A stretch of DNA of 64,000 nucleotides from Sebaldella termitidis ATCC 33386 (GTDB lineage: Bacteria; Fusobacteriota; Fusobacteriia; Fusobacteriales; Leptotrichiaceae). Numbering within the stretch: position 1 is the first letter of the stretch; every line of letters starts with the position of its first letter. The position numbers were made by a program, and so were the translations under genes. Location: contig NC_013517.1 in NCBI RefSeq assembly GCF_000024405.1, positions 2,294,001-2,358,000 of the forward strand, written 5' to 3'. Shown here piece after piece: positions 1,087-27,280 of the stretch. The notes below the pieces were generated by a model. The model saw only the letters and a program-made list of their open reading frames with translations, searched no databases and was not told the origin of the DNA.

Positions 1087-1108
1087 TACATACAAAAAAG
1101 GAGGAATT

Positions 1109-2110
1109 ATGAGAAAAGTAACTCTCATTCCGGGAGATGGAATCGGTCCGGAAATATCAAAAAGTGTAACGGATATATTTGAAGCAGCCGGTGTAGAAGT
1201 AGAATTTGAAATAGAAAACGCCGGAGAAAAAGTCTATAATGAAACAGGGGAGCTTATACCCGAATCATTATATAAAAGTATAGAAAAAAATAAAGTTGCT
1301 TTGAAAGGGCCGATAACAACACCGATAGGTAAAGGATTCAGAAGTATAAACGTATATCTTAGAAAAAAATATGATTTATATTCTAATATAAGACCGATAA
1401 AAACTCTTCCGGGAATCAAAACAAGATATGAAAATATTGATCTGGTTATATTCAGGGAAAATACCGAGGGACTTTATATTGGCGAGGAAAAATTTGAAAA
1501 CGAAGAACAGACATCAGCAATAGCAATAAAGAGAATTACAAAAAAAGGAAGCTTCAGAATAATAAAAGCAGCTTTTGAATATGCAAAAGCCAATAATCTT
1601 AATAAAGTAACCGTGGTTCATAAAGCGAATATACTTAAAATAACTGACGGATTGTTTCTGGATACGGCAAGAGAAATAGCAAAAGATTATCCGGGAATAA
1701 CTGTTGAGGAAGTAATAATAGACAATATGTGCATGCAGCTGGTTATGAACCCTGAAAAATATCAGGTAATAGTAACTATGAATCTGTACGGCGATATTCT
1801 TTCAGATCTTTGTGCCGGTCTTGTAGGCGGTCTAGGGCTGGCTCCGGGCGCAAATATCGGGGAAGATATTGCTGTTTTTGAAGCAGTACACGGATCAGCA
1901 CCTGATATAGCCGGTCAGAATAAGGCTAATCCTCTGGCACTTTTATTTACATCTATAGATATGCTGAAATATCTTAAAGAAAATGAAAAAGCTGAGCAAA
2001 TAGAGAAAGCTGTTTTAAGAATTCTTGAAAAAGGGGAAGTATTAACGGCAGACTTAGGTGGCAGTGCCACAACAGAAGAACTTACAGCAGAAATAATAAA
2101 AAATCTATAG
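1109..2110 (+). CDS. Isocitrate dehydrogenase (NAD+)
   Basis: Oxidative decarboxylation of isocitrate to 2-oxoglutarate. The start is the ATG behind AAAGGAGG (1098-1105); an upstream in-frame ATG at 1064 lies inside the aconitase gene and lacks a ribosome site. The 333 residues show GDGIGPE (9-15), the substrate helix with S79, N81 and R85, RENTEG (116-121), the metal aspartates in GDILSDL (about 229 and 233), and the cofactor loop [10 protein letters not shown] (261-270). Aspartate after HGSAP is typical of NAD rather than NADP enzymes. Homoisocitrate or isopropylmalate dehydrogenase is possible by fold, but the position between aconitase and citrate synthase favours isocitrate. Confidence 0.9.
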
Positions 2111-2124
2111 TCGGGAGTGATTGA

Positions 2125-3450: not shown

Positions 3451-3508
3451 TGGTTTCGAAGAAAACTATTTGATATTTTTAAATTAAGAATAACAGAATA
3501 TAATAATG

Positions 3509-3552
3509 TATAAGGGGCGTAAGCTCCTTATATATTTATTTAAATAAATATA
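3509..3552 (+). terminator. Two adjacent dyads ending the TCA operon
   Basis: A hairpin at 3509-3532 (ATAAGGGGC, loop GTAA, GCTCCTTAT, one G-U pair) is followed directly by a perfect 22-bp A/T palindrome at 3531-3552. The first is a plausible intrinsic terminator, though its downstream tract is interrupted by A residues. Confidence 0.55.
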
Positions 3553-3699
3553 TATTGTTAGTATTGTATAAAAATATATTGGGAGTACAATTAATGAAAT
3601 AGAAAAATACTAATATTTTAGAAATAAAAGCTGAAAATATTCTTATATGAAAACAGACTGGATATATGCCGGTCTATTTTCATGTAAAAAACAAAACTC

Positions 3700-3730
3700 T
3701 TGACTTGGAGTGAACTCAAAGTGTTATAAT
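3700..3730 (+). promoter_or_regulatory. MerR-family type promoter with 19-bp spacer
   Basis: The -35 TTGACT (3700-3705) and -10 TATAAT (3725-3730, preceded by TGT as an extended -10) are 19 bp apart. The spacer holds the dyad ACTTGGAGT-GA-ACTCAAAGT (3703-3722; one mismatch between arms). A long spacer filled by a dyad is the hallmark of promoters untwisted by MerR-family activators. No MerR gene is seen nearby. It drives the histidine phosphatase gene at 3761. Confidence 0.7.
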
Positions 3731-3760
3731 TTTTACAATGTAAATAATCAGGAGGTAATA

Positions 3761-4369
3761 ATGAAAAAAGAATTATATTTGATGCGTCATGGGCAGACAT
3801 TATTTAATAAAAGAAGAAAAGTTCAGGGCTGGTGTGATGCGCCGCTGACTTCGCTGGGAATAGAACAGGCTAAAACTTCCGGAGAATATTTTAAAAAATC
3901 TAAAATCATTTTTGATAAGGCTTATAGTTCCACTTCAGAACGAGCATGCGATACACTTGAATTAGTAACAGATATTCCGTATAAAAGATTAAAAGGTCTG
4001 AAAGAGTGGAATTTTGGGACTTTTGAAGGCGAGAGTGAAGATTTGAATCCGCCTCTTCCGTATAAAGATTTTTTTGTAAATTATGGGGGAGAAGAAGAAA
4101 AAGAATTTCAAAAACGAGCGGTTGAAACATGTATTGATTTTATGGAAAATGAACAGGGAAGAATAGTTTTAGCAGTAAGTCACGGAGCCTTTTGCGGGCA
4201 ATTTAGAAAATATTGGGATCATAATTGCGAATCTAAATTAAAAATAGAAAATAATAAAGGCGGTATTGGGAATTGCTGTATTTTTAAGTATGAATACGTA
4301 GACAGAGAATTTAAATTAGTAGAAATTATAAATAATGAAATGCAGATATTGAAAATATCTGATAAATAA
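3761..4369 (+). CDS. Histidine phosphatase family protein (phosphoglycerate mutase-like)
   Basis: A 202-residue cytoplasmic protein of the branch-1 histidine phosphatase family. Visible catalytic features are LMRHGQT with the phosphorylated His10, an arginine in SSTSERACDT, glutamate in KEWNFGTFEGE and the second histidine in AVSHGAF. The start chosen has AGGAGG 6 nt upstream; an upstream in-frame ATG at 3710 would begin inside the promoter. The substrate cannot be told from sequence (phosphoglycerate, sugar phosphate and nucleotide members all look alike). The gene is transcribed alone, from the MerR-type promoter just upstream, which suggests induction by a stress or small molecule. Confidence 0.85.
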   Translation: MKKELYLMRHGQTLFNKRRKVQGWCDAPLTSLGIEQAKTSGEYFKKSKIIFDKAYSSTSERACDTLELVTDIPYKRLKGLKEWNFGTFEGESEDLNPPLPYKDFFVNYGGEEEKEFQKRAVETCIDFMENEQGRIVLAVSHGAFCGQFRKYWDHNCESKLKIENNKGGIGNCCIFKYEYVDREFKLVEIINNEMQILKISDK

Positions 4370-4776
4370 AACAGGAAAGTAAATAATTTTATGAAAAATA
4401 TATATTAAGAAATAAAGTTATATTAGTTCATTCTGTTTTCAAATAAATTTTATTTTAATATATTGGTATTTAACATAGAAAGATAGAGAATGTTTTTTTA
4501 ATTTGCTAATATATTATCGGACTTAGTGTGTTAAGAAAAATAAAAAAACATCTAGGTAAATAGAATAAGCATTTTAAAGAATGAAAAAATTAATCAGTTT
4601 GAATGATTTTACTTGTTATAAAGAAAGAATGAATTCTAAAAATTTAATAAAGAGACTGAGAGATAAAATTATGAAAAATATTATAGAGAATTTATCTCAT
4701 ACATTTATGGAGGAGGGGCAGAGAAAGTAATTTTTTGAATCGCTGTCCGAAGTATATAAATAATTTCAACTACAGC
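4370..4776. other. Gene-poor spacer with one doubtful small ORF
   Basis: No recognisable gene. A 49-codon frame at 4581-4730 (+), starting MKKLISLNDF and ending MEEGQRK, has basic, helix-like composition but no clear ribosome site. It could be the tail of a decayed gene. Confidence 0.3.
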
Positions 4777-4812
4777 AAAAAAGGACTGTACTAAAGAGAT
4801 GCAGTCCTTTTT
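4777..4812 (-). terminator. Intrinsic terminator of the YdcF/Sir2/CNNM operon
   Basis: GGACTG (4783-4788) pairs with CAGTCC (4802-4807). On the minus strand the stem is followed by a run of T, starting 5 nt after the YdcF-like stop codon. Confidence 0.75.
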
Positions 4813-4816
4813 CATT

Positions 4817-5548
4817 TTATTTCAGATCTAAAATAAGTGTTTTTATAAAAGCCAGTTCCTCTCTCATAATATTTGGAATAAAGCTGATATTCCTAGTTTT
4901 GGAACAGAGAGGATAAACAGTGAGATTATAGTGGCGGGCTATAACTCCTGCCCGGGGCATATGAAAATCACTAGTGACAAGAAGTATATTATGATATTCC
5001 ATATCTGTATCCTTTAGGGCATCAATATAGAATTTTATATTTTCATTGGTATTTGTAGATTTATCCTCAAGAAATATTCTGTTTTCATCAATTCCGTTCT
5101 CAAGAAAGTATTCTTTCATAATTACGGATTCCGGTACTTTTTCATCAATTCCCTGACCGCCTGTAAGAAATACGTTTAAATGTGGATATTCCTTCAGATA
5201 TTCTATAGCTTTATCAGATCTTCTTTTTCCTTCCGGAGAAAGATAAGTTCCATACCTCAAACCGCTTCCAAGAACCACAACAAAATCTGATTTTTGGGCA
5301 CCGGAAGGATTATCATATTTTACATTCCTATATAAAATAAATGCAAAAAATAAAATAAAGATTATATATAAAATAAAGAAAATATAAATCATATTCTTTA
5401 TGACGGAATTTTGTGTATAAACTGAAAAAAGAAGCAGAGCAGCAAATATAATTAATAAAAATGGTCCGAAATTTCTTATTCCGATAACCAGAAGAAATAT
5501 GCTGTACAATATCATTACTGCACTCAATATCTTTAATGTAAGTTTCAT
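4817..5548 (-). CDS. YdcF/SanA-like DUF218 membrane protein
   Basis: A 243-residue protein with three predicted membrane segments (about 7-24, 28-45 and 52-75) and then a DUF218 domain. The domain shows the family signatures VVVLGSGL, GKRRSDKAIEYL, VFLTGGQG, the acidic LEDKSTNTNENI, and TSDFHMPRA. DUF218 proteins (E. coli YdcF, SanA) are linked to envelope integrity, but their reaction is not settled. The active domain probably faces outside the membrane; this is inference. It is the last gene of a three-gene unit with the sirtuin and the CNNM-type protein, 20 bp after the sirtuin stop, and is closed by a terminator. Confidence 0.85.
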   Translation of the reverse strand: MKLTLKILSAVMILYSIFLLVIGIRNFGPFLLIIFAALLLFSVYTQNSVIKNMIYIFFILYIIFILFFAFILYRNVKYDNPSGAQKSDFVVVLGSGLRYGTYLSPEGKRRSDKAIEYLKEYPHLNVFLTGGQGIDEKVPESVIMKEYFLENGIDENRIFLEDKSTNTNENIKFYIDALKDTDMEYHNILLVTSDFHMPRAGVIARHYNLTVYPLCSKTRNISFIPNIMREELAFIKTLILDLK

Positions 5549-14742: not shown

Positions 14743-14802
14743 ATGATTAATTATAAATATATAAATGACAATATGATGATGTATATGCGGTATAGAGTTT
14801 GA
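14743..14802 (+). CDS. Met leader peptide (19 aa)
   Basis: The short frame reads M-I-N-Y-K-Y-I-N-D-N-M-M-M-Y-M-R-Y-R-V and stops at TGA. Three consecutive Met codons lie at 14773-14781 and a fourth at 14785-14787. AGGTGGAG is placed 7 nt before the ATG. The frame ends in AGAGTTTGA, the same nine bases that end the His leader, and this stop region is segment 1 of the RNA switch. A leader rich in codons for the product of the downstream operon is the defining mark of ribosome-mediated attenuation. Confidence 0.8.
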   Translation: MINYKYINDNMMMYMRYRV

Positions 14803-14911
14803 CCTTTTTATAAAATATAAAAAGCACAGACTCTTTTTGAAGTTTTTAATCTAAAAAGAGCTGTGCCCATAGATAGATGTTCCGGACACGGCTGTGTCCG
14901 GATTTTTTTTT
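14794..14911 (+). promoter_or_regulatory. Methionine attenuator (competing hairpins and terminator)
   Basis: Segment 1 AGAGTTTG (14794-14801) pairs with 2 CAGACTCT (14827-14834), 8 bp with one G-U. Segment 2 (14824-14838) also pairs with 3 (14853-14866), 14 bp with one bulge. Segment 3 AGCTGTG (14859-14865) can pair with CACGGCT (14887-14893), the 5' arm and loop of the terminator. The terminator is TCCGGACAC/GTGTCCGGA, loop GGCT, then T9 (14881-14911). Expected logic: a ribosome stalled at Met codons leaves 1:2 and the antiterminator 3:4; a ribosome reaching the stop hides 1, so 2:3 and the terminator form. Confidence 0.8.
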
Positions 14912-14966
14912 ACAAAATTTAATTATATAACAAATAATCAAATATATATAAAGGATGGTGACAATA

Positions 14967-16238
14967 ATGTCAGAATACAAATTTGAAACATTACAGCTTC
15001 ATGCTGGTCAGGAAGAGGCGGATAAGTCAACGAATTCAAGAGCAGTACCAATTTACCAAACCACATCTTATGTTTTTAACAGTGTGGAGCATGCAGCTAA
15101 TCTCTTTTCGCTGAAAGAAGAAGGAAATATATACAGCAGAATGATGAATCCTACTACGGATATTCTGGAAAAAAGAATAACGGCACTTGACGGCGGAGTC
15201 GGGGCAGTAGCAGTAAGCTCAGGAAGTGCCGCAGTAACATATGCAATTTTGAATCTGGCAGTATCCGGAGATGAAGTTATATCATCAAAGAATCTTTATG
15301 GGGGAACATATAATCTTCTGGCGAATACAATAAAGGATTTTGGAATAACTACAAAGTTTTTTGATCCCGGAAGACCGGAAGATATCGAGAAATTAATAAA
15401 TGAAAAATCAAAGGCAGTATTTATAGAAAGTATAGGAAACCCCAATGCGGATATTACAGATATAGAAAAAACTGCTGAAATAGCTCATAAATACGGACTT
15501 CCCCTGATAATAGACAATACGTTTTCTCCATATCTGTGCAAGCCTTTCCAGCATGGAGCAGATGTAATAGTGTACTCGGCAACAAAATTTCTTGGCGGAC
15601 ACGGGACAACAATAGCAGGACTGGTAGTAGATTCCGGAAAATTTGACTGGAAGAATGAAAGATTCAAAAGCTTTAACGAACCGGATCCCGGATATCACAA
15701 TCTAAAATATTCAGATTTAGGAGAAGCTGCATATATAGCAAAATTAAGAGTGAGGCTTCTCAGAGATACAGGTGCATGTCTTTCACCTTTTAATTCTTTT
15801 CTGATATTACAAGGGATAGAAACACTCTCGCTGAGAATAGACAGACACGTGGAGAATGCTGTAAAAACAGCAGAATATCTGGAAAAGCACCCTAAAGTAA
15901 AAGCTGTAAATTATCCCGGATTAAGCAGCAGCCCTTATAAAAAACTGCAGGAAAAATATCTTCCAAAGGGCGGAGGCTCTATATTTACCTTTGAACTGAC
16001 AGGTGGTCTGGAAGCAGGAAAAAAATTTATTGATTCATTAAAGCTGTTTTCTCATCTGGCAAATGTTGCAGATGCAAAATCTCTTATAATACATCCGGCA
16101 AGTACAACACACAGCCAGCTTACAGAGGAAGAACTGACAGCCTGTAATATAACTCCGGGAATAATAAGAATATCTATAGGTCTGGAGCATATTGATGATA
16201 TAATAGATGATCTGAAGCAGGCTTTGGATAAAATCTAA
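14967..16238 (+). CDS. O-acetylhomoserine sulfhydrylase (PLP-dependent)
   Basis: Makes homocysteine from O-acetylhomoserine and sulfide. The 423-residue protein belongs to the Cys/Met metabolism PLP family: YSRMMNPTTDILEKRI near the N-terminus, SSGSAAVTYAI, and the PLP lysine in VYSATKFLGGHGT. The length and the GQEEADKSTNSRAVPIYQTTSY start favour the sulfhydrylase over cystathionine synthase or lyase. The ATG at 14967 follows AAGGATGGTG; an earlier ATG lies within that site. It is the first structural gene after the Met attenuator, followed by MetF and a MetA of the acetyl type, so the three form a direct-sulfhydrylation pathway. Confidence 0.9.
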   Translation: MSEYKFETLQLHAGQEEADKSTNSRAVPIYQTTSYVFNSVEHAANLFSLKEEGNIYSRMMNPTTDILEKRITALDGGVGAVAVSSGSAAVTYAILNLAVSGDEVISSKNLYGGTYNLLANTIKDFGITTKFFDPGRPEDIEKLINEKSKAVFIESIGNPNADITDIEKTAEIAHKYGLPLIIDNTFSPYLCKPFQHGADVIVYSATKFLGGHGTTIAGLVVDSGKFDWKNERFKSFNEPDPGYHNLKYSDLGEAAYIAKLRVRLLRDTGACLSPFNSFLILQGIETLSLRIDRHVENAVKTAEYLEKHPKVKAVNYPGLSSSPYKKLQEKYLPKGGGSIFTFELTGGLEAGKKFIDSLKLFSHLANVADAKSLIIHPASTTHSQLTEEELTACNITPGIIRISIGLEHIDDIIDDLKQALDKI

Positions 16239-16255
16239 AAACAGAAAGGATAAAA

Positions 16256-17134
16256 ATGAAAATAAAGGATATATATCAAAATAAAAAAGCAGTATTCTCA
16301 TTCGAAATATTTCCTCCTAATGAAAATTTTTCAAGTGAAAAGCTGTACGGGGTAATAGACGAGCTGAGTATACAGAAGCCGGATTTTATAAGTGTTACAT
16401 ATGGTGCCGGCGGAACTACAAAGGGCGGCACCATAGAGATGGCCTCGTATATAAAAAATAAATTAAATATAGAAGCAGTAACGCATCTTACATGTGTGGG
16501 AAGCAGGAAAGACGAAATAGAAAATTTCCTGAATGAGCTGGAAAGGAATAATATAGAAAATATTCTTGCTCTGAGAGGTGATATTCCAAAGGATCAGGAT
16601 GAAAGTATATATGACAGAGGAGACTTTCTGTATGCCTCTGATCTGATAAAGGCGGTCAGGGCTACAAAGAGATTTTCTGTGGGAGGAGCCTTTTATCCTG
16701 AGGTTCATCATGAAAATAATGATCTTATAGATCTGTTTAATTTGAAGAAAAAGGTAGATTCCGGAACTGATTTTCTGGTATCACAGATATTTTTTGACAA
16801 TGAAAGCTTTCTTGATTTTCGTGATAAAGCTGAAAAAGTAGGGATAAATGTACCTTTAGCTGCCGGAATAATTCCTGTAACTAATGCGAAACAGATTAAA
16901 AGAATAACTTCTTTATGTAACTGTAAAATTCCGAAAAAGCTGGAAAGAATACTAAATGCTTATGAGGATAATAATGAAGCAATGTATCAGGCAGGAATAG
17001 CATATGCTACAGAACAGATAATAGAACTGCTTTCTGCCGGCATAAAAGGAATACATATTTATACAATGAATAAGACAAATGCAGTAAAAGAGATTCTGGA
17101 AAATATAAGCAGCATAAGAAAATATTATGAATAA
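16256..17134 (+). CDS. metF: 5,10-methylenetetrahydrofolate reductase
   Basis: Reduces methylene-THF to methyl-THF, the methyl donor for methionine synthase. The 292-residue flavoprotein barrel shows FSFEIFPPN with the catalytic glutamate, SVTYGAGGTTKGGT, HLTCVGSRKDEIE, LALRGDIPKD (flavin contact) and GIKGIHIYTMNKTNAV near the C-terminus. It lies 17 bp after the sulfhydrylase and 21 bp before metA, in one operon under the Met attenuator. No methionine synthase is in the window, so that gene must be elsewhere. Confidence 0.93.
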   Translation: MKIKDIYQNKKAVFSFEIFPPNENFSSEKLYGVIDELSIQKPDFISVTYGAGGTTKGGTIEMASYIKNKLNIEAVTHLTCVGSRKDEIENFLNELERNNIENILALRGDIPKDQDESIYDRGDFLYASDLIKAVRATKRFSVGGAFYPEVHHENNDLIDLFNLKKKVDSGTDFLVSQIFFDNESFLDFRDKAEKVGINVPLAAGIIPVTNAKQIKRITSLCNCKIPKKLERILNAYEDNNEAMYQAGIAYATEQIIELLSAGIKGIHIYTMNKTNAVKEILENISSIRKYYE

Positions 17135-17155
17135 ATAACAGAGAGGAGGATTTTT

Positions 17156-18025
17156 ATGTTGATATTAAATAAAAATATGCCTGTAATAGAGGAGCTGAAA
17201 GGAATGATCGATATAAAGACAAAGAACGGAAAGCTTAATGTTTCCAAAAAATCCAAGAAAATTCTGGTATTGAACCTGATGCCCAATAAAGTAAAAACAG
17301 AGTATCATATTCTGAGACTCCTGAACACAAAGAAACCGGATGAAGAGATAGAACCGTTTTTTTTGAAGCTTGATACACATAAATATAAAAATATAGATGT
17401 CGAATATCTTAATGAATTTTATGTATCATTAGAAGAGATAAAAAATCTGGATATTGAAGCAGCTATAATAACAGGAGCACCGCTTGAAAAAATAAAATTT
17501 GAAGAAGTCGCATACTGGGAAGAGCTTAAGGGAATATTTGAATTTATTAATAATCTGAAATCCTCTATTTTTATATGCTGGGGTTCACAGGCAGCATTAT
17601 ATTATTTTCATAATATACCAAAATATGATTATAAACGTAAAAAGTTTGGTGTATTTAAACATAACTGCGAAAACAAATCGAAGCTGTTTGACAGTCTTGA
17701 TAATGAAGATTTCAAAATACCGCATTCAAGATATACTTACATAAAAAGAGAAGATATAAAGAAAAAAAGCAGTCTTGAAATACTTCTTTCAGATGAAAAT
17801 AATGAGCCTGTTATAGTAAAGGATAAAAATAAAATATATATATCAGGACACATGGAGTATGATAAATATAATTTAAGAGATGAATATGTCAGAGATATAA
17901 ATAATAATCTGGAGATAAATATACCTGATAATTATTTTTTGGATAATAAACCGGAAAATTCACCGGCTTTTTCCTGGGAAAAATTTTCAAGGATATTTTA
18001 TTCCAACTGGCTTGAAAGCTTTTAA
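17156..18025 (+). CDS. metA: Homoserine O-acetyltransferase, MetA type
   Basis: Activates homoserine for methionine synthesis. The 289-residue protein has the MetA fold: LNLMPNKVKTEYHILRLL, the ITGAPLE loop, nucleophile Cys141 in FICWGSQAALYYFHN, and HSRYT with GHMEYD at the C-terminal half. Residue 111 is glutamate; work on Bacillus cereus and E. coli MetA showed that glutamate here gives acetyl-CoA use and glycine gives succinyl-CoA use. Acetyl specificity agrees with the O-acetylhomoserine sulfhydrylase at the head of the operon. AGAGAGGAGG lies 7 nt before the ATG. Confidence 0.9.
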   Translation: MLILNKNMPVIEELKGMIDIKTKNGKLNVSKKSKKILVLNLMPNKVKTEYHILRLLNTKKPDEEIEPFFLKLDTHKYKNIDVEYLNEFYVSLEEIKNLDIEAAIITGAPLEKIKFEEVAYWEELKGIFEFINNLKSSIFICWGSQAALYYFHNIPKYDYKRKKFGVFKHNCENKSKLFDSLDNEDFKIPHSRYTYIKREDIKKKSSLEILLSDENNEPVIVKDKNKIYISGHMEYDKYNLRDEYVRDINNNLEINIPDNYFLDNKPENSPAFSWEKFSRIFYSNWLESF

Positions 18026-18650: not shown

Positions 18651-18679
18651 TTTACTTATGAATATTAATGTACTATAAT
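18651..18679 (+). promoter_or_regulatory. his operon promoter
   Basis: TTTACT, a 17-bp spacer and a perfect TATAAT (18674-18679). Transcription would start near 18686, about 20 nt before the leader ATG. Confidence 0.7.
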
Positions 18680-18704
18680 AAATTATAAAATAACGGGAGT
18701 GAAA

Positions 18705-18779
18705 ATGATGACTTTAATAACTATAAATAATAATTCTATAAATAAAATAAGAAAACATCATCATATTGGCAGAGTTTGA
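18705..18779 (+). CDS. His leader peptide (24 aa)
   Basis: The frame starts with two ATG codons after a GGGAGTG ribosome site and reads MMTLITINNN, then SINKIRK-HHH-IGRV, stopping at TGA. Three consecutive His codons are at 18756-18764. It ends with AGAGTTTGA, as does the Met leader. It sits between the his promoter and the attenuator hairpins, 140 bp before hisZ, and is best explained as the sensor of charged tRNA-His. Confidence 0.85.
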   Translation: MMTLITINNNSINKIRKHHHIGRV

Positions 18780-18890
18780 ACCTGAAGTAATTATTGGGAG
18801 CAGACTCTTTTTGAACTTACAATTCAAAATAGTCTGTGCCAGTTTATGAATATATAGGAAATCTGGGCAGAAATGTCCGGATTTTTTTTT
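18771..18890 (+). promoter_or_regulatory. Histidine attenuator (competing hairpins and terminator)
   Basis: Segment 1 AGAGTTTG (18771-18778) pairs with 2 CAGACTCT (18801-18808). Segment 2 also pairs with 3: CAGACT/AGTCTG plus inner TTTTGAA/TTCAAAA (18801-18836). Segment 3 can pair with the terminator 5' arm in two blocks, CTG/CAG and CCAG/CTGG (18834-18842 with 18863-18870). The terminator is ATCTGGGCA/TGTCCGGAT, loop GAAA, running into T9 (18861-18890). Layout and segments 1 and 2 match the Met attenuator. Confidence 0.82.
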
Positions 18891-18918
18891 AAGGCAGATA
18901 ATCGGAAGGAGACAGAAA

Positions 18919-20046
18919 ATGAAAAAATTTATAAGCAGTCTGAAGGAAGAGGAAAAAATAATACTGAAGCTTAGAAAACATTATGAGCAGTATGGATATA
19001 AGAAAATAAAACTCAGTAAATTTGAAAGTTACGATTTATATAATGAAAATGCCGACTTTATAAAAATCGAAAATATTATTACATTTATGGCACCAACAGG
19101 AAAGCTGCAGACACTAAGACCGGATGTAACCTTATCCATAGTAAAAAAGTATGCCAGAGATAAAAAGAAAGAGATGGAAAAGCTGTATTATATAGAAAAT
19201 ATCTACAGACTTTCCAAAGAGGATATGGAGTATAAGGAATTAAACCAGATCGGCGTAGAGATACTCGGAGAATCTGACGGATATTCAGATTTTGAAATTA
19301 TAAATCTTGCAGCAGAAAGTATGGAACTGATAAATAAAAATTTTATTCTGGATATTTCCAATATTAATTACTTATCTGGATTATTTGAAGAAATGAATTT
19401 GGGATATACTTTGGAAGAAGAAGTGTTAATGAATATACAGCATAAAAATGTTCATGATCTGGAAAAAATTCTTACAAAAGAGAATGTAGAATCTAAATAT
19501 AAAGAAATTCTAATAAAAATTCCGGATTTATCAGGTAAATTTCATAATGTAATAACAGAAGCAGAAAAGCTGGTTTTGAACGAAAAGATGCAGAAAGCGC
19601 TTGATGAACTGAAAATGCTGGGACAGGCTTTCCCGAAAATGATAAAAAACGGAAAAATATTGCTGGATTTTTCTATAGTAAACAGCCTTGATTATTATAA
19701 CGGGCTTATATTTCACGGATATATAGAAAATAATCCCAAAATTATACTGTCCGGCGGAAATTACGATAAGCTGATTGAAAAATACGATAAGAATAAAGGT
19801 GCAACAGGTTTTGCAATTTATCTTGATGAACTTTCCGGAAAATATAAAATAGAAAAAGAATATGATTTTGATATTTTGATATTATATAAAAACGGAGATA
19901 ATGCAAAGCTTCTGAATATCGTGAAAAAATATATAGATCAGGGACTTACAATACGAACAGAAAAATACAGGGAAGACTTTAATACAAATTTTAAGTATAA
20001 AGAAAAATACATTTTTGAAGATGACAGACTTGTTGGGAAGGAGTAA
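18919..20046 (+). CDS. hisZ: ATP phosphoribosyltransferase regulatory subunit
   Basis: Class II aminoacyl-tRNA-synthetase paralogue, related to HisRS, that is required for activity of the short HisG and mediates feedback control by histidine. The 375 residues include the motif-2-like LQTLRPDVTLSIVKKYA and ISGGNYDKL-like histidine-binding stretch (LSGGNYDKLIEKYD), and lack a tRNA anticodon-binding domain. The ribosome site GGAAGGAGA is 6 nt upstream. It is the first gene of the operon, after the attenuator; the next gene, hisG, starts 3 nt after its stop, in keeping with a heteromeric complex. Confidence 0.88.
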   Translation: MKKFISSLKEEEKIILKLRKHYEQYGYKKIKLSKFESYDLYNENADFIKIENIITFMAPTGKLQTLRPDVTLSIVKKYARDKKKEMEKLYYIENIYRLSKEDMEYKELNQIGVEILGESDGYSDFEIINLAAESMELINKNFILDISNINYLSGLFEEMNLGYTLEEEVLMNIQHKNVHDLEKILTKENVESKYKEILIKIPDLSGKFHNVITEAEKLVLNEKMQKALDELKMLGQAFPKMIKNGKILLDFSIVNSLDYYNGLIFHGYIENNPKIILSGGNYDKLIEKYDKNKGATGFAIYLDELSGKYKIEKEYDFDILILYKNGDNAKLLNIVKKYIDQGLTIRTEKYREDFNTNFKYKEKYIFEDDRLVGKE

Positions 20047-20048
20047 AT

Positions 20049-20666
20049 GTGTTAAATATAGCATTGCCTAAAGGAAGGCTCGGAGATAAGACATACAGCT
20101 TATTTGAAAAAATAGGGTATAAGTGTGATGAACTGACTGAGGACAGCAGAAAACTGATTTTTGAAAATAAGGAAAAAAATATCAGATATCTGCTTGTAAA
20201 GCCGTCAGATGTAGGAATATATGTAGAGAAAGGTGCAGCAGATATAGGTGTGGTAGGAAAGGATATATTACTGGAGAATGTTTATGATATTTATGAGCTT
20301 CTGGATCTGAATCTGGGAATATGTAAAATATCAGTTGCAGCTCTTTCAGGGTATAAAGAAGATACTGAAAGAAAGCTGAGAGTAGCTACCAAGTACGTAA
20401 ATACAGCAAAAAAGTATTATTCATCTTTGAACAGAGAGACAGATATAATAAAATTAAACGGATCTATAGAGCTGGCTCCTATTCTGGGACTTTCCGACGT
20501 AATAGTGGATATAGTGGAAACCGGTAATACATTAAAAGAAAATAATCTAAAGGTAATAAATGACATAGAAGAGATAAGTGCAAGATTTATTGCCAACAAA
20601 ACGAGCTACAAATTTAAAAATGAAGAGATAAAAAATATAGAAAAAAAACTTAGGGAGGTAATATGA
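20049..20666 (+). CDS. hisG: ATP phosphoribosyltransferase, short form
   Basis: First step of histidine synthesis: ATP plus PRPP to phosphoribosyl-ATP. At 205 residues it is the short form that lacks the regulatory domain and needs HisZ. It begins with the GTG codon (an ATG two bases earlier hits a stop at once), reading LNIALPKGRLGDK, with GVVGKDILLE in the middle and VDIVETGNTLKENNL as the PRPP loop. AAGGAG overlaps the end of hisZ. It overlaps hisD by 4 bp. Confidence 0.95.
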   Translation: MLNIALPKGRLGDKTYSLFEKIGYKCDELTEDSRKLIFENKEKNIRYLLVKPSDVGIYVEKGAADIGVVGKDILLENVYDIYELLDLNLGICKISVAALSGYKEDTERKLRVATKYVNTAKKYYSSLNRETDIIKLNGSIELAPILGLSDVIVDIVETGNTLKENNLKVINDIEEISARFIANKTSYKFKNEEIKNIEKKLREVI

Positions 20667-21949
20667 TAAAGACAATAAGGTATAACAAAAATACAGCACT
20701 GGATGAGATATTTCCCAGAAGCCAGTTTGAATATGAGGATATTAACAAAAAGGTAAGAGAAATAATAGAAGATGTAAAAGCTAATGGCGATAAAGCACTT
20801 TACAAATACAGCGAGATGTTTGATGTAAAACTGGAAAGCTTAACTGTAAGCAGTGAAGAGATAGAAGAAGCATATGACAGAATCGATGAAGAATTCAAGG
20901 AAGTACTGCTTGCTGCTGCGGGTAATATAAGAAAATTTCATGAAAAACAGGTCAGAAATAATTTTTTTACAAATGGAAAAGATGGAGTTTTGCTGGGACA
21001 AATAATAAATCCTATAGAGAAAGCCGGAATTTATATCCCCGGAGGAACAGCTTCTTACCCTTCTACGGTATTAATGAATGTAATTCCTGCCAAGATTGCC
21101 GGAGTGGAAGAAATCATACTTGTAAGCCCTCCTAACAAAGAGGGGAGTATAGAAGATTCTATTCTCGCTGCTGCTAAAATAGCCGGAGCAGACAGAATTT
21201 TCAAAATCGGGGGAGCACAGTCAATAGCAGCCTTGAGCTACGGGACGGAGACTATTCCTAAAGTATATAAAATAACCGGTCCCGGAAATATATATGTCGC
21301 TATGGCAAAGAAAATGGTTTACGGCGAGGTAGATATAGATATGGTGGCAGGTCCAAGCGAAATTCTTGTAATAGCAGATGAAAATGCCGTTCCGGAAAAT
21401 GTAGCAGCTGATCTTTTATCACAGGCAGAGCATGACAGGCTTGCAGCAAGTGTATTGGTTACAACGAGTGAGGAAATAGCTGAAAAAGTAAAAAATGAAC
21501 TGGTAAAACAGCTTGAAAGGCTTCCAAGAGAAGAGACAGCAAAGGAATCTCTAAAAAATAACGGAAGAATAATAATAACGGAAACAATAGATGAGGCAGT
21601 GAAAATCAGCAATGAAATAGCACCGGAGCATTTGGAATTATGTGTAAATGATCCGTTTTCCATTCTTGGAAAAATAAAAAATGCTGGATCGATATTTCTG
21701 GGTAATAATACTCCGGAAGCACTGGGAGATTATTTTGCCGGCCCGAATCATACACTGCCGACAAGCGGAACTGCAAAATTTTCTTCGCCGCTTTCAGTGG
21801 ATGATTTTATAAAAAAATCTTCGGTAATTTATTACACTAAAGAAGCACTGGAAAAAGTAAAGGATAAGATAATATGCTTTGCGGAAAAGGAAGGACTTAA
21901 TGCACATGCAGAGTCAGTGAGAATAAGATTTGAAGGTGGTAAAAAATGA
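20663..21949 (+). CDS. hisD: Histidinol dehydrogenase
   Basis: Catalyses the last two oxidations, histidinol to histidine, with NAD and zinc. The 428 residues include PGGTASYPSTVLMNVIPAKI, GPGNIYVAMAKK, DMVAGPSEILVIADE, DLLSQAEHDRLA with zinc and catalytic residues, and GPNHTLPTSGTA with the conserved histidine. The start follows TTAGGGAGGT and overlaps hisG by 4 bp; the end overlaps hisC by 4 bp, so the three are translationally coupled. Confidence 0.96.
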   Translation: MIKTIRYNKNTALDEIFPRSQFEYEDINKKVREIIEDVKANGDKALYKYSEMFDVKLESLTVSSEEIEEAYDRIDEEFKEVLLAAAGNIRKFHEKQVRNNFFTNGKDGVLLGQIINPIEKAGIYIPGGTASYPSTVLMNVIPAKIAGVEEIILVSPPNKEGSIEDSILAAAKIAGADRIFKIGGAQSIAALSYGTETIPKVYKITGPGNIYVAMAKKMVYGEVDIDMVAGPSEILVIADENAVPENVAADLLSQAEHDRLAASVLVTTSEEIAEKVKNELVKQLERLPREETAKESLKNNGRIIITETIDEAVKISNEIAPEHLELCVNDPFSILGKIKNAGSIFLGNNTPEALGDYFAGPNHTLPTSGTAKFSSPLSVDDFIKKSSVIYYTKEALEKVKDKIICFAEKEGLNAHAESVRIRFEGGKK

Positions 21950-23013
21950 GCAGATTCTGGAATAATAAAGTAAAGGAGCTGGTTCCATACACTCCGGGAG
22001 AACAGCCGAAGGATAAAAAATATATAAAACTAAATACAAACGAGTTTCCTTATTCACCCTCGCCTATGGTAGAGGATATAATAAAAAATTATGATTTTGA
22101 AGATTTGCGGCTTTATCCTGATCCTGATGTATCAGAGCTGAAAAATGAAATTGCTTCTTTTTACGGTCTAAATACTGAGAACATATTTATAGGAAACGGT
22201 TCTGACGAGATTTTGGCTTTTGCCTTTATGACCTATTTTAACAGCGGAGATAAGATATATTATCCAAATATAACATACAGCTTTTATCCGGTGTATTCAG
22301 ATTTATTTGATCTAAAGCCTGAAACAATTCCTCTGAATAAAAATTTTGAAATAGAAACTGATGATTATAAAAATCTGGACAGTGGAATAATTCTGGCTAA
22401 TCCCAATGCACCCACAAGTATTGCACTGGGAAGAGATCAAATTGAAGAAATAATAGCTGCCAATAAAGATAATATAGTAATTATAGATGAAGCATATATA
22501 GATTTCGGCGGTGAATCTGTATTGGAATTAACAAAAAAATATGATAATCTTCTGGTAATTCAGACATTCTCAAAATCAAGAGCTCTTGCAGGGATGCGTT
22601 TAGGCTTTGCAGCAGGAAATAAAGAGCTTATAGACGGTCTGGATAAAGTGAAATTTTCTTTTAATTCCTATACAATTAACAGATTATCTATAAAAGCAGG
22701 TACTGCCGCAGTAAAAGATTCGGAATATTTTCTAAAAACTGTAGAGGCACTTATAAAAACAAGAGAGAAAACAAAAAAAGTCTTAAAAGAATACGGCTTT
22801 TTTGTACCGGATTCCAAAGCAAATTTTTTATTTGTGAGTCACAGCAGAATCTCTGGTGAGGAATTATATCTGAAATTAAAAGACAGCGGAATTCTCGTGA
22901 GATATTTCAAAAAGCCGGGAATAGATAATTTTATAAGAATAACAATAGGTACAGAAAAAGAAATGGAAATATTTGAGGAGAAAATAAAAGAAATTTTAAA
23001 ACAGAATAAATAA
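21946..23013 (+). CDS. hisC: Histidinol-phosphate aminotransferase
   Basis: PLP-dependent transamination of imidazole acetol phosphate to histidinol phosphate. The 355-residue fold-type I protein has LNTNEFPYSPSP at the substrate end, GNGSDEILAF, LANPNAPTS, the PLP aspartate in IIDEAYIDF, and the PLP lysine in QTFSKSRALAGMRLG. The conserved arginine is in FIRITIGTEKE. It starts within the end of hisD. A 64-bp gap to hisB is the largest in the early operon, but no terminator is visible in it. Confidence 0.95.
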   Translation: MSRFWNNKVKELVPYTPGEQPKDKKYIKLNTNEFPYSPSPMVEDIIKNYDFEDLRLYPDPDVSELKNEIASFYGLNTENIFIGNGSDEILAFAFMTYFNSGDKIYYPNITYSFYPVYSDLFDLKPETIPLNKNFEIETDDYKNLDSGIILANPNAPTSIALGRDQIEEIIAANKDNIVIIDEAYIDFGGESVLELTKKYDNLLVIQTFSKSRALAGMRLGFAAGNKELIDGLDKVKFSFNSYTINRLSIKAGTAAVKDSEYFLKTVEALIKTREKTKKVLKEYGFFVPDSKANFLFVSHSRISGEELYLKLKDSGILVRYFKKPGIDNFIRITIGTEKEMEIFEEKIKEILKQNK

Positions 23014-23077
23014 GCTTTGATAATATCATATTAATTATTTTGAATCTAAATCAGATGAAATATTAGGAGGAATAATC

Positions 23078-23668
23078 TTGAGAGAAACAATAATAGAAAG
23101 AAAAACCAATGAAACGGATATAAGAGTGAAGCTTAATCTGGACGGAACCGGAAAATATAAAAATGATACAAAAATAGGATTTCTTAATCATATGCTCGAT
23201 CTGTTTACGAAACACGGGAGATTTGATATGGAGGTAATCTGTAACGGAGATATTGATGTAGATTATCATCACTCAGTAGAGGATATAGGAATAGTAATCG
23301 GAAAATGCTTTGCGGATATACTCGGAGATGTGAGAGGAATAAACAGATACGGCAACTTTTATATGCCTATGGATGAAGCATTAACACTTGTTGCTGTAGA
23401 TATATGCGGACGGTCATATTTAAAGTTTGATGTTGATATTCCTACACAAAAAGTAGGAAGCTTTGATACAGAGCTGGTAAAAGAATTTTTTCTTGGATTT
23501 ACAAGAGGAATAGAAGCTACAATACATATAAAAACTTTCTACGGAGAGAATTCACATCACATAATAGAGTCTGTTTTCAAAGGATTTGCCAGAGCTATTG
23601 CGCAGGCAGTGGAAATAGATGAAAAATTTAAGGATGAAATACTGTCTACTAAAGGAGTGTTAGCATGA
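23078..23668 (+). CDS. hisB: Imidazoleglycerol-phosphate dehydratase
   Basis: Dehydrates imidazole glycerol phosphate to imidazole acetol phosphate using manganese. At 196 residues it is the monofunctional enzyme, without a fused histidinol phosphatase; that activity is supplied by the PHP protein at the operon end. Metal histidines are in GFLNHMLDLFTKHG, DVDYHHSVEDIGI and GENSHHIIESVFKGFA. It starts with TTG 6 nt after AGGAGG, reading RETIIERKTNET. It overlaps hisH by 4 bp. Confidence 0.95.
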   Translation: MRETIIERKTNETDIRVKLNLDGTGKYKNDTKIGFLNHMLDLFTKHGRFDMEVICNGDIDVDYHHSVEDIGIVIGKCFADILGDVRGINRYGNFYMPMDEALTLVAVDICGRSYLKFDVDIPTQKVGSFDTELVKEFFLGFTRGIEATIHIKTFYGENSHHIIESVFKGFARAIAQAVEIDEKFKDEILSTKGVLA

Positions 23669-24279
23669 TAGCAGTGATAGATTATGGTGTAGGCAATTTA
23701 TTTTCACTGAAATCATCACTTGACTATACAGGACTGGAAAATATATTTACAAACAGTGAAAGTGAAATAAGAAAGGCAGATGCCTTGATACTTCCGGGAG
23801 TAGGAGCATTCAGAGATGCAATAGACATTCTTAATAAGACAGGTTTGGGTACTATTGTAAAGGAAGAAGCAGAAAATGGGAAAAAGATACTGGGAATATG
23901 TCTGGGAATGCAGCTTTTATTTGATAAAAGCTATGAATACGGAGAATATAAAGGACTTGGACTTATAAACGGGGATATAGTTTCTATGAAAGATAATTTG
24001 AAAAATAAAAAATTAAAAGTACCTCATATGGGATGGAACAGTCTTGAATTTCTAAAAGAGGATAAAATTCTGAAATATATAAATGCAGGTGAATATGTAT
24101 ATTATGTGCATTCATATTATGCAGAAAACTGTAATGATTCTGTAATAGCCTGTTCAGATTATGACATAAAAATTCCGGGAATAGTAAAAAATAATAATAT
24201 TTACGGAATACAGTTTCATCCTGAAAAAAGCGGGAAAACAGGATTAAATATATTAAAAGCTTTCGGGGAGATGATATAA
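23665..24279 (+). CDS. hisH: Imidazole glycerol phosphate synthase, glutaminase subunit
   Basis: Class I glutamine amidotransferase that feeds ammonia to HisF. The 204 residues include VIDYGVGNLFSLKSSL, LPGVGAF, nucleophile cysteine in ILGICLGMQLLFD, and the His-Glu pair in GIQFHPEKSG. It overlaps hisB by 4 bp and abuts hisA with no gap. Confidence 0.95.
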   Translation: MIAVIDYGVGNLFSLKSSLDYTGLENIFTNSESEIRKADALILPGVGAFRDAIDILNKTGLGTIVKEEAENGKKILGICLGMQLLFDKSYEYGEYKGLGLINGDIVSMKDNLKNKKLKVPHMGWNSLEFLKEDKILKYINAGEYVYYVHSYYAENCNDSVIACSDYDIKIPGIVKNNNIYGIQFHPEKSGKTGLNILKAFGEMI

Positions 24280-24993
24280 ATGATAATATTTCCGGCAATA
24301 GATTTGAAAAACGGAGAAGCAGTAAGATTAACACAAGGGGACTATAATCAGGTAAAAGTATATTTTAAAAATCCTGCTGAGGTTCTTGAATTTTTTAAAA
24401 AAAATAACAGTCAATATCTTCATATAGTGGATCTTGACGGTGCCAGCAGCGGGAAAACGGAAAATTTTGAAACTATAAAAATGCTTGTAGAAAATAGTGA
24501 CTTATTTATTCAGGTAGGCGGCGGTATAAGAAATGAAGAAAGAATAAAAAAATATCTGGAGCTTGGAGTAAATAGAGTCATACTGGGAACGGCCGCAATA
24601 GAAAATCCGGAATTTCTTGTAGAAATGGTGCATAAATATAAGGATAAGGTGGCAGTTTCTGTAGATGCACACGATCAAAAAGTAGCAGTAAACGGCTGGA
24701 AAGAAGTAAAATCCATAGATTCTTTTGAATTTTGCAAAACATTATCGGACATTGGAGTAGATAATATTATATATACTGATATCTCAAAAGACGGTAAAAT
24801 GAGCGGAACTAACATAGAAATATACAGAAGATTAAGTAAAGTAATAAAGTCAAAGATAACTGCATCAGGCGGAATTACATATAAGGATGAGATAATCGAG
24901 CTTAAATCATTAAATATATACGGAGCAATAGTAGGTAAGGCTATATATGAGAATACTCTGAATCTGGAAGAGATTATAAAAACAGCCGAATAA
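24280..24993 (+). CDS. hisA: ProFAR isomerase
   Basis: Isomerises ProFAR to PRFAR by an Amadori rearrangement. The 237-residue beta-alpha barrel begins FPAIDLKNGEAVRLTQGDY with the catalytic aspartate, carries the phosphate loops VGGGIRNEE and GTAAIENPE, and has the second acid in VSVDAHDQK. It lies directly between hisH and hisF. A dual HisA/TrpF role is not suggested. Confidence 0.95.
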   Translation: MIIFPAIDLKNGEAVRLTQGDYNQVKVYFKNPAEVLEFFKKNNSQYLHIVDLDGASSGKTENFETIKMLVENSDLFIQVGGGIRNEERIKKYLELGVNRVILGTAAIENPEFLVEMVHKYKDKVAVSVDAHDQKVAVNGWKEVKSIDSFEFCKTLSDIGVDNIIYTDISKDGKMSGTNIEIYRRLSKVIKSKITASGGITYKDEIIELKSLNIYGAIVGKAIYENTLNLEEIIKTAE

Positions 24994-25012
24994 AATTCAG
25001 GAGGAAAATTTA

Positions 25013-25768
25013 ATGATAACAAAAAGAATAGTTCCCTGTCTTGATGTAAGGGACGGGAGAGTAGTAAAAGGAAAAAATTTTAAAGGTATTCAGGATGTAG
25101 ATAATCCTGTGGAGCTTGCAAAATTTTATAATGAATCTGGTGCAGATGAGCTGGTATTTTATGATATAACTGCTTCCTACGAAAAGAGGGGAATCTTTAT
25201 AGATGTACTAAAAAATGTGGCAAGAGAAGTATTTATTCCCCTTACAGTCGGAGGCGGGATAAATAGCGTGGAAGACTTTGATGCTGTATTAAAAGCCGGT
25301 GCTGACAAAGTAAGTGTAAATTCAGGGGCAATAAAAAATCCCGGACTGATAAAAGTGGCTGCTGAAAAATATGGTAACCAGTGTGTGGTTTTATCAATAG
25401 ATATAAAAAGAGTAGATGGAAAATACTGTGTTTTTTCCAATGGCGGCAGAATAAATACTGGAATAGATGCGATAGAATGGGCAGAGCTGGGTGAAAAAAA
25501 CGGTGCTGGAGAACTTGTAGTGAACAGTATTGATACAGATGGGGTAAGAAATGGTTTTGATCTGGAACTACTAAAAGATATAAGTAAAAATCTGAGTATC
25601 CCTGTAGTAGCTTCAGGCGGTGCAGGCAATATGGAACACTTCAAGGATGTTTTTATGCTTGAGGGGGTAGATGCGGGACTTGCTGCTTCTATATTTCACT
25701 TTAAAGAAATAGATATAATGGATTTGAAAAGATATTTGGAAAAAAATAATATAGTAGTAAGAATATAG
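25013..25768 (+). CDS. hisF: Imidazole glycerol phosphate synthase, cyclase subunit
   Basis: Uses ammonia from HisH to turn PRFAR into imidazole glycerol phosphate and AICAR. The 251-residue barrel has the catalytic aspartates in [16 protein letters not shown] and [12 protein letters not shown], and the phosphate loops [17 protein letters not shown] and [12 protein letters not shown] strong AGGAGG sits 7 nt before the ATG. It is 19 bp after hisA and 8 bp before hisIE. Confidence 0.96.
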
Positions 25769-25776
25769 GAGGAAAT

Positions 25777-26430
25777 ATGGTATTATATAATAACATAAAA
25801 GAATTGAAGTTTGACAGCAATGGTCTTATCCCGGCAGTAATTCAGGATTATTATACCAAAGAAGTACTGACTGTGGCATATATGAATTCTGAAAGCTTGA
25901 AAATAACAATAAATGAAGGAAAAACATGTTTTTACAGCAGAAGCAGAAATGAATTATGGAGAAAAGGCGAGACTTCCGGAAATTATCAGCATGTGGTAAG
26001 TATAAAGTCTGACTGCGATAATGATTCACTTGTAATTGAAGTAATAAAGGACGGTCCGGCGTGTCACACAGGTGCCGAATCATGTTTTAACAACTTGATT
26101 TTCAAAACCCGGGAAGAAAATTTTTCTATTCAGAAGTTATATGATCTGATAAAAGAGAGAAAGACAAATAATACTGAGAATTCTTACACATCTTATTTAT
26201 TTGAAAAAGGTCTGGATAAAATACTGAAAAAAATAGGAGAAGAGTGTACAGAAGTAATAATAGGCGCTAAAAATAAGGGAAATGAAGAATTAGTTTATGA
26301 GCTTGCAGATCTTGTATATCATTCAATGGTGCTTATGATAGAGAAAGATATTACTCTCGCTGATATAAAGGAAGAATTAAAGAAAAGACAGGTTGTAGAT
26401 AAGAAGGTAAAACAGGAAAAAATGAAATAA
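25777..26430 (+). CDS. hisIE: Bifunctional PR-AMP cyclohydrolase / PR-ATP pyrophosphatase
   Basis: Catalyses the second and third steps of histidine synthesis. The 217 residues contain the HisI domain (about 1-110) with [41 protein letters not shown] and [12 protein letters not shown] (metal cysteines), then the HisE domain (about 115-205) with [20 protein letters not shown] and [13 protein letters not shown]. The start follows AGGAGGAA. It precedes the PHP phosphatase by 10 bp. Confidence 0.95.
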
Positions 26431-26440
26431 AGGAGGCAGT

Positions 26441-27280
26441 ATGAAATTTTTATCAAATTTACACACTCATACACTTTACTGTGATGGTAATAACAGTGCT
26501 GAAGAGTATATAAAAAGGGCAATAGAACTTGGATTTATAAGTATAGGATTTTCAGGACATTCTTATATTCCGGGTACTCTTGGCGAAGACTGGGGAATGA
26601 GTGAGGAGGGAACTCTGGAATATATAAAAGAATTAAAAGGTTTAAGAGAAAAATATAAAGGTGATATTGAAGTTTATATTGGCCTGGAAACAGATTATTA
26701 TTCCGGTTATAAAAAAGATATAAAGGAAAAATTATCTTTGGATTATACTCTGGGGTCTGTCCATTTGATAAAAAATGATACTACCGGGGAATATTACAGT
26801 ATTGACAGTTCTCCGGAAATAACCGAAGAAGGTATAAAAGCTTTTGGCGGTGTAAGAAATTATATAAAAAAATACTATGAAACCCTGTTAGAAATGATTG
26901 AAGAGCAGGAACCTGATATTATAGGTCATATTGATCTGGTAAAAAAATTCAATTCTGATAACAGATATTTTGATGAAACTGAGGAATGGTACATAAGCCT
27001 GATTGATGAAGCACTGGATAAAATAAAAAGCAGTAATTCGATAATAGAAGTAAATACCGGAGCAATGTCAAGAGGATGGACAAATTTTCCATATCCGTCG
27101 AAATTTATTCTAAAGCTTATTCTGGAAAAAAATATTCCTATTACATTGAATTCTGATGTTCATTCAGTAGAAAACCTGGATTATTATTTTGATGAATCAA
27201 TGGAAGTAATAAAAGAAACAGGATTTAAGAAAATAAAAATTTTAAAAAAATCAGAATTTCAGGATATTGAAGTAAAATAA
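26441..27280 (+). CDS. hisK: Histidinol-phosphatase, PHP family
   Basis: Dephosphorylates histidinol phosphate, completing the pathway encoded by the operon. The 279-residue PHP protein has metal ligands in SNLHTHTLYCDGNNSAEEY, SGHSY, GLETDYYSG, GSVHLI, HIDLVKKFN and LNSDVHSVENLD. It is the Bacillus/Lactococcus-type enzyme (HisJ or HisK by naming tradition), not the HAD type fused to HisB. Being last in the operon, it supplies the step missing from the monofunctional HisB. GGAGG is 6 nt upstream. Confidence 0.92.
   Translation: MKFLSNLHTHTLYCDGNNSAEEYIKRAIELGFISIGFSGHSYIPGTLGEDWGMSEEGTLEYIKELKGLREKYKGDIEVYIGLETDYYSGYKKDIKEKLSLDYTLGSVHLIKNDTTGEYYSIDSSPEITEEGIKAFGGVRNYIKKYYETLLEMIEEQEPDIIGHIDLVKKFNSDNRYFDETEEWYISLIDEALDKIKSSNSIIEVNTGAMSRGWTNFPYPSKFILKLILEKNIPITLNSDVHSVENLDYYFDESMEVIKETGFKKIKILKKSEFQDIEVK

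Follow-up and report, generated by a model that had tools for sequence, protein, structure and literature searches.

The leader of the histidine operon in the DNA analysed here, a 64,000-nucleotide stretch of Sebaldella termitidis ATCC 33386 (hereafter the window; the genome comprises 4.49 Mb in 3 contigs), is very probably a ribosome-mediated transcription attenuator and one of a family of attenuators that share an RNA scaffold. We file it under ribosome-mediated attenuation, working like the Escherichia coli his attenuator. The mechanism is a known one, run here on one scaffold with interchangeable regulatory codons, and what is new is the phylum, the sharing of a scaffold whose codons are exchangeable, the occurrence of Met-codon leaders, and an account of what the trpB motif is. 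In the classical view, as taught, each operon invented its leader-peptide attenuator separately. Here, like scaffolds carry codons for His, Met, Cys/Met, Pro, Thr, Thr/Ile, Tyr, Trp or mixed aromatic residues, mostly before matching genes, with three aminoacyl-tRNA synthetase genes among those that follow such leaders. Because like scaffolds serve many amino acids, specificity looks reprogrammable by codon swapping.

In regard to anatomy, a Shine-Dalgarno (SD) sequence precedes a short leader open reading frame (ORF) with tandem codons for the operon's own amino acid, and an intrinsic terminator stands between this leader and the first gene, hisZ (coordinates in Table 1). A preliminary description of this DNA, made from the sequence alone, had already read a 24-codon peptide ending K-HHH-IGRV-stop, a terminator with a T9 tract 28 nt before hisZ, and a complete his operon with HisZ and a short HisG, in what it took for a fusobacterial genome. 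Each of these readings holds, and leader-peptide attenuation of the operon, which it had proposed, is the best-supported interpretation of the locus. The promoter that it named is present as well; since five promoter-like sites occur in the leader region against 3.2 expected, the promoter is on its own weak evidence. Among SD-preceded short ORFs (sORFs) starting with ATG on both strands of the window, only the his leader contains a run of His codons, and we reject on this ground the idea that it is a chance sORF. The leader is kept in all four genomes of the genus, among which HisZ identity falls as low as 59%. All four peptides end HHH-x-GRV-stop, and in the most distant genome the leader reads MKTVNNSIKQNKTNKYHHHTGRV-stop with the downstream architecture unchanged. 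Over its 38 nt the terminator has a folding energy of -16.2 kcal/mol (z -5.06), and the region 18760-18892 has z -4.95; in each case 0/200 shuffles did as well. The terminator escaped a simple scan, apparently because its stem extends into the T run.

Computation establishes this anatomy and its conservation, along with the agreement of codons and genes and the co-evolving pairings described below; translation of the his leader, ribosome stalling, their kinetics and regulation in the cell we infer. The leader peptide would be translated during synthesis of the RNA. Under a shortage of His-tRNA, the ribosome would stall at the first His codons and cover segment 0 while leaving segment 1 free, so that segments 1 and 2 pair, segments 3 and 4 form an antiterminator, and hisZ and the genes beyond it are transcribed (pairings 1:2 and 3:4, predicted for read-through). 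When His is plentiful, the ribosome would reach the stop codon and cover segments 0 and 1, whereupon segments 2 and 3 would pair and the terminator would form (2:3 and 4:5, predicted for termination). If the leader is not translated at all, the His codons should pair with segment 3 around the 1:2 hairpin, which would leave segments 4 and 5 free to terminate transcription (0:3 around 1:2, with 4:5).

These alternative pairings leave a trace in the comparison of genomes. HisD is present in 37 of the 98 Fusobacteriota genomes of our phylum search, and a His leader stands 5' of hisZ in 16 of them, namely the four of the genus and 12, all those assessable, from six other genera of a second family (f4, which we take to be Fusobacteriaceae). 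Among the leaders of these 16 genomes, the mutually exclusive hairpins of the preliminary description are borne out, in that every predicted pairing co-varies across genera. With segment borders picked by hand after the sequences had been viewed, we compared pairing between a genus's own segments with pairing between segments of different genera over all 5040 permutations of seven genera, and obtained p values of 143/5040 for 0:3, 86/5040 for 1:2, 13/5040 for 2:3, 2/5040 for 3:4 and 1/5040 for 4:5; six unpredicted pairings were null (1016 to 5038 of 5040). Helix 1:2 of the his leaders is paired in 91.1% of alignment cells, with compensatory changes, and 0/500 shuffles did as well on cells paired and on score; slid out of register, it pairs in 26-45% of cells. 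When folding was computed with a mask in place of the ribosome, segment 4 paired upstream with a mean probability of 0.67 for a mask at the first His codon versus 0.38 for a mask at the stop, and the stalled state exceeded the stop state in 16/16 sequences, two of them near ties. The co-evolving pairings and this shift point to a mutually exclusive antiterminator, with ribosomes at the two positions favouring different folds, within the limits of a static model; the result is supportive of the switch without proving it.

The scaffold is not confined to his operons. A model of segments 1-3 of the 12 f4 his leaders, with the codons excluded (R2), matches many further sites in the 98 genomes, some of them in genomes without a his operon. 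An HHHH leader precedes a family-3 ATP-binding cassette (ABC) binding protein gene, a PIPPR or NPTVPR leader putP, TTTT thrS, TITTTIII asd, YYYYY tyrS, WIHWW trpS, and WW or WWW the gene of an SNF-family symporter; representatives of these downstream genes were identified by NCBIfam or Pfam and the remainder by BLASTP against the representatives. With at least two cognate residues required among the last 14 of the leader, codons and gene match at 85/86 loci, compared with 36/4300 shuffled upstream windows, a count in which the substrates of the binding-protein and SNF transporter classes are taken from their own leaders; without these two classes the match is 47/48, and also without the 12 training loci it is 35/36. 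The single mismatch (L322) has one Trp only. Of 93 loci tabulated, two lie at a contig edge and five, before genes for iron-type alcohol dehydrogenases (Fe-ADH) or a phosphotransferase-system (PTS) EIIC component, have no obvious amino acid, and 17 of 80 extra R2 matches, which lacked a leader or a gene, had been dropped beforehand (L296, L303, L318, L320, L325, L327, L330, L331, L334 and L336-L343). All but two of these 17 have E > 0.005, and a leader is present at 81 of the 83 R2 matches listed with E up to 0.005. L296 and L303 are R2 matches with E < 0.005 at which no leader ORF of the expected kind is recognisable.

Two further properties hold across this wider set. Helix 1:2 is paired in 93.6% of cells with 76 both-side changes, in an alignment fitted to the model, and 0/500 shuffles equal this. 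The codon stretch, moreover, pairs with its own segment 3 at -16.74 kcal/mol compared with -12.79 (sd 0.34) under permutation (0/20000 permutations), with the matched amino-acid classes being the best of 120 class assignments in a test that left out five aromatic loci and one single-Trp locus. No Rfam family lies over the leaders at gathering score in the 20 loci scanned. Leader codons also yield predictions for the substrates of uncharacterised transporters, as at the 34 binding-protein loci that bear His leaders.

Within the window, a scan for an SD-preceded sORF followed by a terminator and then a gene picked out two loci only, the his leader and a Met-codon leader. The Met leader RNA, 4 kb upstream of the his leader, has a scaffold in common with it; in one genome of the genus it precedes a metE-like gene, and no S-adenosylmethionine (SAM) riboswitch or T-box occurs at gathering score within the window. 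A third copy in the same genome consists of a Cys/Met leader, MENKINIINYNMCMCSRRV-stop, 5' of a sulfite/nitrite reductase-family gene, such that a single genome holds one scaffold with differing regulatory codons. Nine aligned his, met and cys copies from the genus share invariant GAGTTTGA, CAGACTC and CTGTGCC. A covariance model of these nine copies (R1) also matches two MMCMC leaders in the genus 5' of cysK (E 2.2e-6 and 5e-6), the CysK proteins being above the NCBIfam cut-off. Two leaders ending MCHHR, before an amino-acid ABC binding protein gene in two genomes of the genus (L224 and L221, about 1400-1650), match at E 0.04 and 3.0 and were retained since both genomes conserve the leader; no such leader was seen at the other low-scoring R1 matches examined. 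The Met-codon scaffold and the scaffolds with other codons across the phylum had escaped the preliminary description. Literature searches found no Met-codon leaders in print, and they are an odd case, in that starvation should strike initiation besides elongation. Leader control of cysS has already been proposed (PMC8632094). On the strand opposite to the Cys/Met leader region (L201, 1350-1464) there is a match to the Rfam family of Bacillus small RNA (sRNA) ncr1015, at 39 versus 60 bits, which possibly reflects the hairpins alone.

Table 1. Features of the his and Met leader loci in the window (window coordinates)
Feature	Coordinates	Strand	Remarks
Met-codon leader peptide MINYKYINDNMMMYMRYRV-stop	14743-14802	+	kept in 4/4 genus genomes
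Met attenuator segments 1-3	GAGTTTG 14795-14801; CAGACTC 14827-14833; CTGTGCC 14861-14867	+	
Met attenuator terminator	14881-14911	+	
metY-metF-metA, 3' of the Met leader	14955-18025	+	NCBIfam: metY and metF above cut-off, metA below
Sigma-70-like promoter TTTACT-17-TATAAT	18651-18679	+	10/12 consensus matches
Shine-Dalgarno GGGAG	18695-18699	+	5 nt 5' of the leader ATG
his leader peptide ORF MMTLITINNNSINKIRKHHHIGRV-stop	18705-18779	+	24 codons, C-terminal K-HHH-IGRV-stop; ATG at 18705, TGA at 18777-18779
Regulatory His codons CATCATCAT	18756-18764	+	with the next ATTGGCA = segment 0, able to pair with segment 3
Segment 1 GAGUUUG, end of leader ORF	18772-18778	+	partner: segment 2
Segment 2 GCAGACUC	18800-18807	+	partner: segment 1 or 3
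Segment 3 AGUCUGUGCCAGUUUAUGA	18831-18849	+	partner: segment 2, 4 or 0
Intrinsic terminator: segment 4 AAAUCUGGGCA / GAAA / segment 5 UGUCCGGAUUU	18859-18884	+	stem arms 18859-18869/18874-18884, GAAA loop
T9 tract of the his terminator	18882-18890	+	28 nt to the hisZ start (18919)
Regulated operon hisZ-hisG-hisD-hisC-hisB-hisH-hisA-hisF-hisIE-hisK	18919-27280	+	hisG and hisZ named by NCBIfam (hisZ below curated cut-off), other his genes by eye

Our findings also bear on the trpB motif (RF04312), which has been described as a strong riboswitch candidate of Firmicutes and Fusobacteria with more than 900 reported members, usually 5' of an uncharacterised amino-acid ABC transporter (Narunsky 2024, PMC11109978). 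Like the leaders described here, the motif combines a hairpin with a terminator and has its antiterminator in the right shoulder of P1, an arrangement equivalent to segments 2-5. The passages on the motif treat it as a ligand-type candidate and describe no leader ORF, and its authors cannot rule out a classic attenuator (PMC11109978). The his leader of the window has 15 Rfam matches below gathering score, of which the best is a weak one to RF04312 (30.9 bits against a gathering score of 59, E 0.02). Within Fusobacteriota it matches 38/98 genomes at E up to 1e-3 and 0/98 above the cut-off, many of the matches overlapping leaders by eye (for example L240, L249, L253, L284, L302 and L322). This match and the published status of the motif would favour a metabolite-binding riboswitch at the his locus, in which the 2:3 hairpin and the terminator would make up aptamer and expression platform and the ORF before them would be incidental. 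Codons fit the gene, however, at 85/86 scaffold matches and at all 14 RF04312 matches above the cut-off described below, the conserved core consists of alternative pairings and is not aptamer-like, and the authors of the motif themselves leave room for an attenuator. We regard a riboswitch here as very unlikely and reject it on the codon-gene matching.

The 14 matches come from outside the Fusobacteriota. Two of 398 genomes of another phylum group were matched by RF04312 at E up to 1e-4, one of them above the cut-off, and in the family of that one genome (29 genomes) 14 matches pass the cut-off; 30 of the family's 34 matches were taken as loci. All 14 lie 15-21 nt 3' of the stop codon of an SD-preceded leader ORF, and their leaders, which comprise 13 distinct peptides, have at least two Trp among the last ten residues (shuffles 2/7000). 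The 16 loci below the cut-off comprise ten with two Trp, two with one Trp and YY, two of an FYFSYYR type, one without such residues and one at a contig edge. At 21 of the 29 loci tested the gene that follows is TrpX-like, and at L377 it is trpB itself; one of the two loci with one Trp and YY, when checked, lies 5' of a TrpP-family gene, and one of the two FYFSYYR-type loci 5' of a shikimate dehydrogenase gene. In these loci, too, the codon stretch finds its best partner in the segment 3 of its own sequence (0/20000). We conclude that the trpB motif, at least in this family of 29 genomes, constitutes the 3' half of leader-peptide attenuators. An orphan riboswitch candidate thus receives a testable answer, which is to seek translation, not a ligand. 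Enterococcus sRNA 2410 (RF02863) is filed as an sRNA and scores below gathering at leader loci here: L394 and L400 match at 54.2 and 44.3 bits versus 61, over aromatic leaders 5' of shikimate dehydrogenase-like genes. This Rfam family may represent terminated leaders and not an sRNA gene, and it is through the RF02863 matches alone that the 29-genome family is tied to Enterococcus.

Several observations weigh against an attenuator on a common scaffold. In RNA that ends at segment 3, the equilibrium fold of the stalled state prefers 2:3 over 1:2 in 14/16 sequences, genus g14 has a weak 3:4 pairing (-5.6 and -4.6 kcal/mol), and pairing 0:3 is modest in three leaders (L001-L003). R2 has no in-place match on the 13 leader loci of the genus, the his leader of the window included, and R1 finds other lineages weakly (best E 0.012, 14/24 matches in place). 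No His leader was found in 20 of the 37 HisD-bearing genomes, comprising 15 others of the window's family, three of genus g18 and two of other families. With regard to folding, classical attenuation hinges on the order of RNA synthesis, to which static folding is blind. The hisL leader of E. coli K-12 gives 0.69 for the stalled ribosome versus 0.68 for the ribosome at the stop under the same masks, and its RNA cut at segment 3 behaves like those here; because the states of hisL are likewise unseparated, the equilibrium folding test decides neither way. With regard to ancestry, the failure of R2 on the genus leaders and the weakness of R1 elsewhere leave homology of the scaffolds likely but unproved; the scaffolds of the genus and of f4 are likely, together with the Firmicutes motif, to descend from one ancestor. 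On balance we lean toward a history in which one ancestral attenuator RNA was copied many times in Fusobacteriota and Firmicutes, its specificity being reset by codon swaps with segment 3 co-evolving, in a T-box-like role and with the trpB motif and Enterococcus sRNA 2410 as members.

The many relatives entirely without a leader would suit a plain constitutive 5' untranslated region, any regulation being exerted at the promoter by a repressor such as HisR, which is common in Firmicutes (PMC9413887). HisR itself was not searched for; co-evolution of the pairings over seven genera and the matching of codons to genes would not be expected of such a region, and we hold this explanation to be most improbable. 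A divergent T-box that senses uncharged tRNA-His deserves almost no credence and is rejected: T-boxes are present in the same genome, before an AsnB-like gene, but RF00230 has no match at the his locus at gathering score or up to E 10, and the anatomy is that of an ORF with His codons, in which inspection by eye showed neither a T-box sequence nor a specifier loop. More generally, the preliminary description had named a T-box or another sensor as what would speak against attenuation, and no Rfam family occurs at gathering score at the his locus or anywhere else in the window. L031 (G000:C1:427326-427559) is a T-box match below the cut-off (76 bits) 5' of an asparagine synthetase-like gene; T-boxes and leader peptides thus coexist in this genome. 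An older survey counted no T-boxes in two genomes of Fusobacteria/Thermotogae (PMC2494555).

The his leader of the window belongs beside E. coli hisL, with which it has in common a His-codon leader peptide, alternative hairpins and an intrinsic terminator, all ahead of the his operon; the roles of the E. coli regions B-F fall here to segments 1-5. It differs in that the first gene is hisZ and hisG is short, in that the scaffold is common to leaders for other amino acids, and in that the 1:2 hairpin persists in the untranslated fold, where segment 3 is hidden by the His codons, whereas in the fold of E. coli hisL the first two His codons are likewise paired just after D, yet C:D forms too. Membership in the Rfam His_leader family (RF00514) is rejected, since it has no match in the window at gathering score and none at the his locus up to E 10. 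T-boxes likewise rely on a single scaffold, in which a short element sets the specificity by codon, and serve synthetase, transporter and biosynthesis genes for many amino acids. There, bound uncharged tRNA reads the codon; here, we propose, the translating ribosome does so. The preliminary description called His attenuation by leader peptide established for enterobacteria, which is right but incomplete, as His-codon leaders have also been predicted in bacilli (Naville and Gautheret 2010, PMC2965389) and in the Bacillus cereus group, Peptostreptococcaceae and Erysipelotrichales (Ashniev 2022, PMC9413887). These Firmicutes attenuators resemble ours in placing His-codon leaders before his operons or hisZ outside Proteobacteria. 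A word search of the main text of either paper finds no mention of Fusobacteria, and the passages on such leaders state no scaffold common to other amino acids (PMC9413887, PMC2965389).

Some leaders of the wider family stand in unusual settings. At L286 (200-704), a Thr/Ile leader attenuator is followed by a tandem glycine riboswitch and then by asd, which amounts to two stacked controls. Mixed aromatic leaders (FWF-YYF) precede genes without an evident aromatic link at L295, L299, L324 and L326 (Fe-ADH) and at L313 (PTS EIIC), and an aromatic leader, NSFWYFYYF, lies 5' of a gene for 3-deoxy-D-arabino-heptulosonate 7-phosphate (DAHP) synthase at L350.

The His leader itself appears to be a restricted possession. 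Among 80 named HisZ loci, mostly from Clostridia, a leader is lacking in 78, and the two positives are genomes of the same genus; the 78 loci from outside the genus gave no convincing His leader, and a second sample of hisZ loci from Clostridia showed weak chance sORFs in 3/30. Within Fusobacteriota, hisZ lies apart from hisD in two of the leaderless genomes (G033 and G034), and one locus that ends at a contig edge (G095) was counted neither with nor without a leader. In one genome without a HisD match (G094), a complete His leader stands 5' of a shortened hisZ frame (L238), perhaps a decaying his operon.
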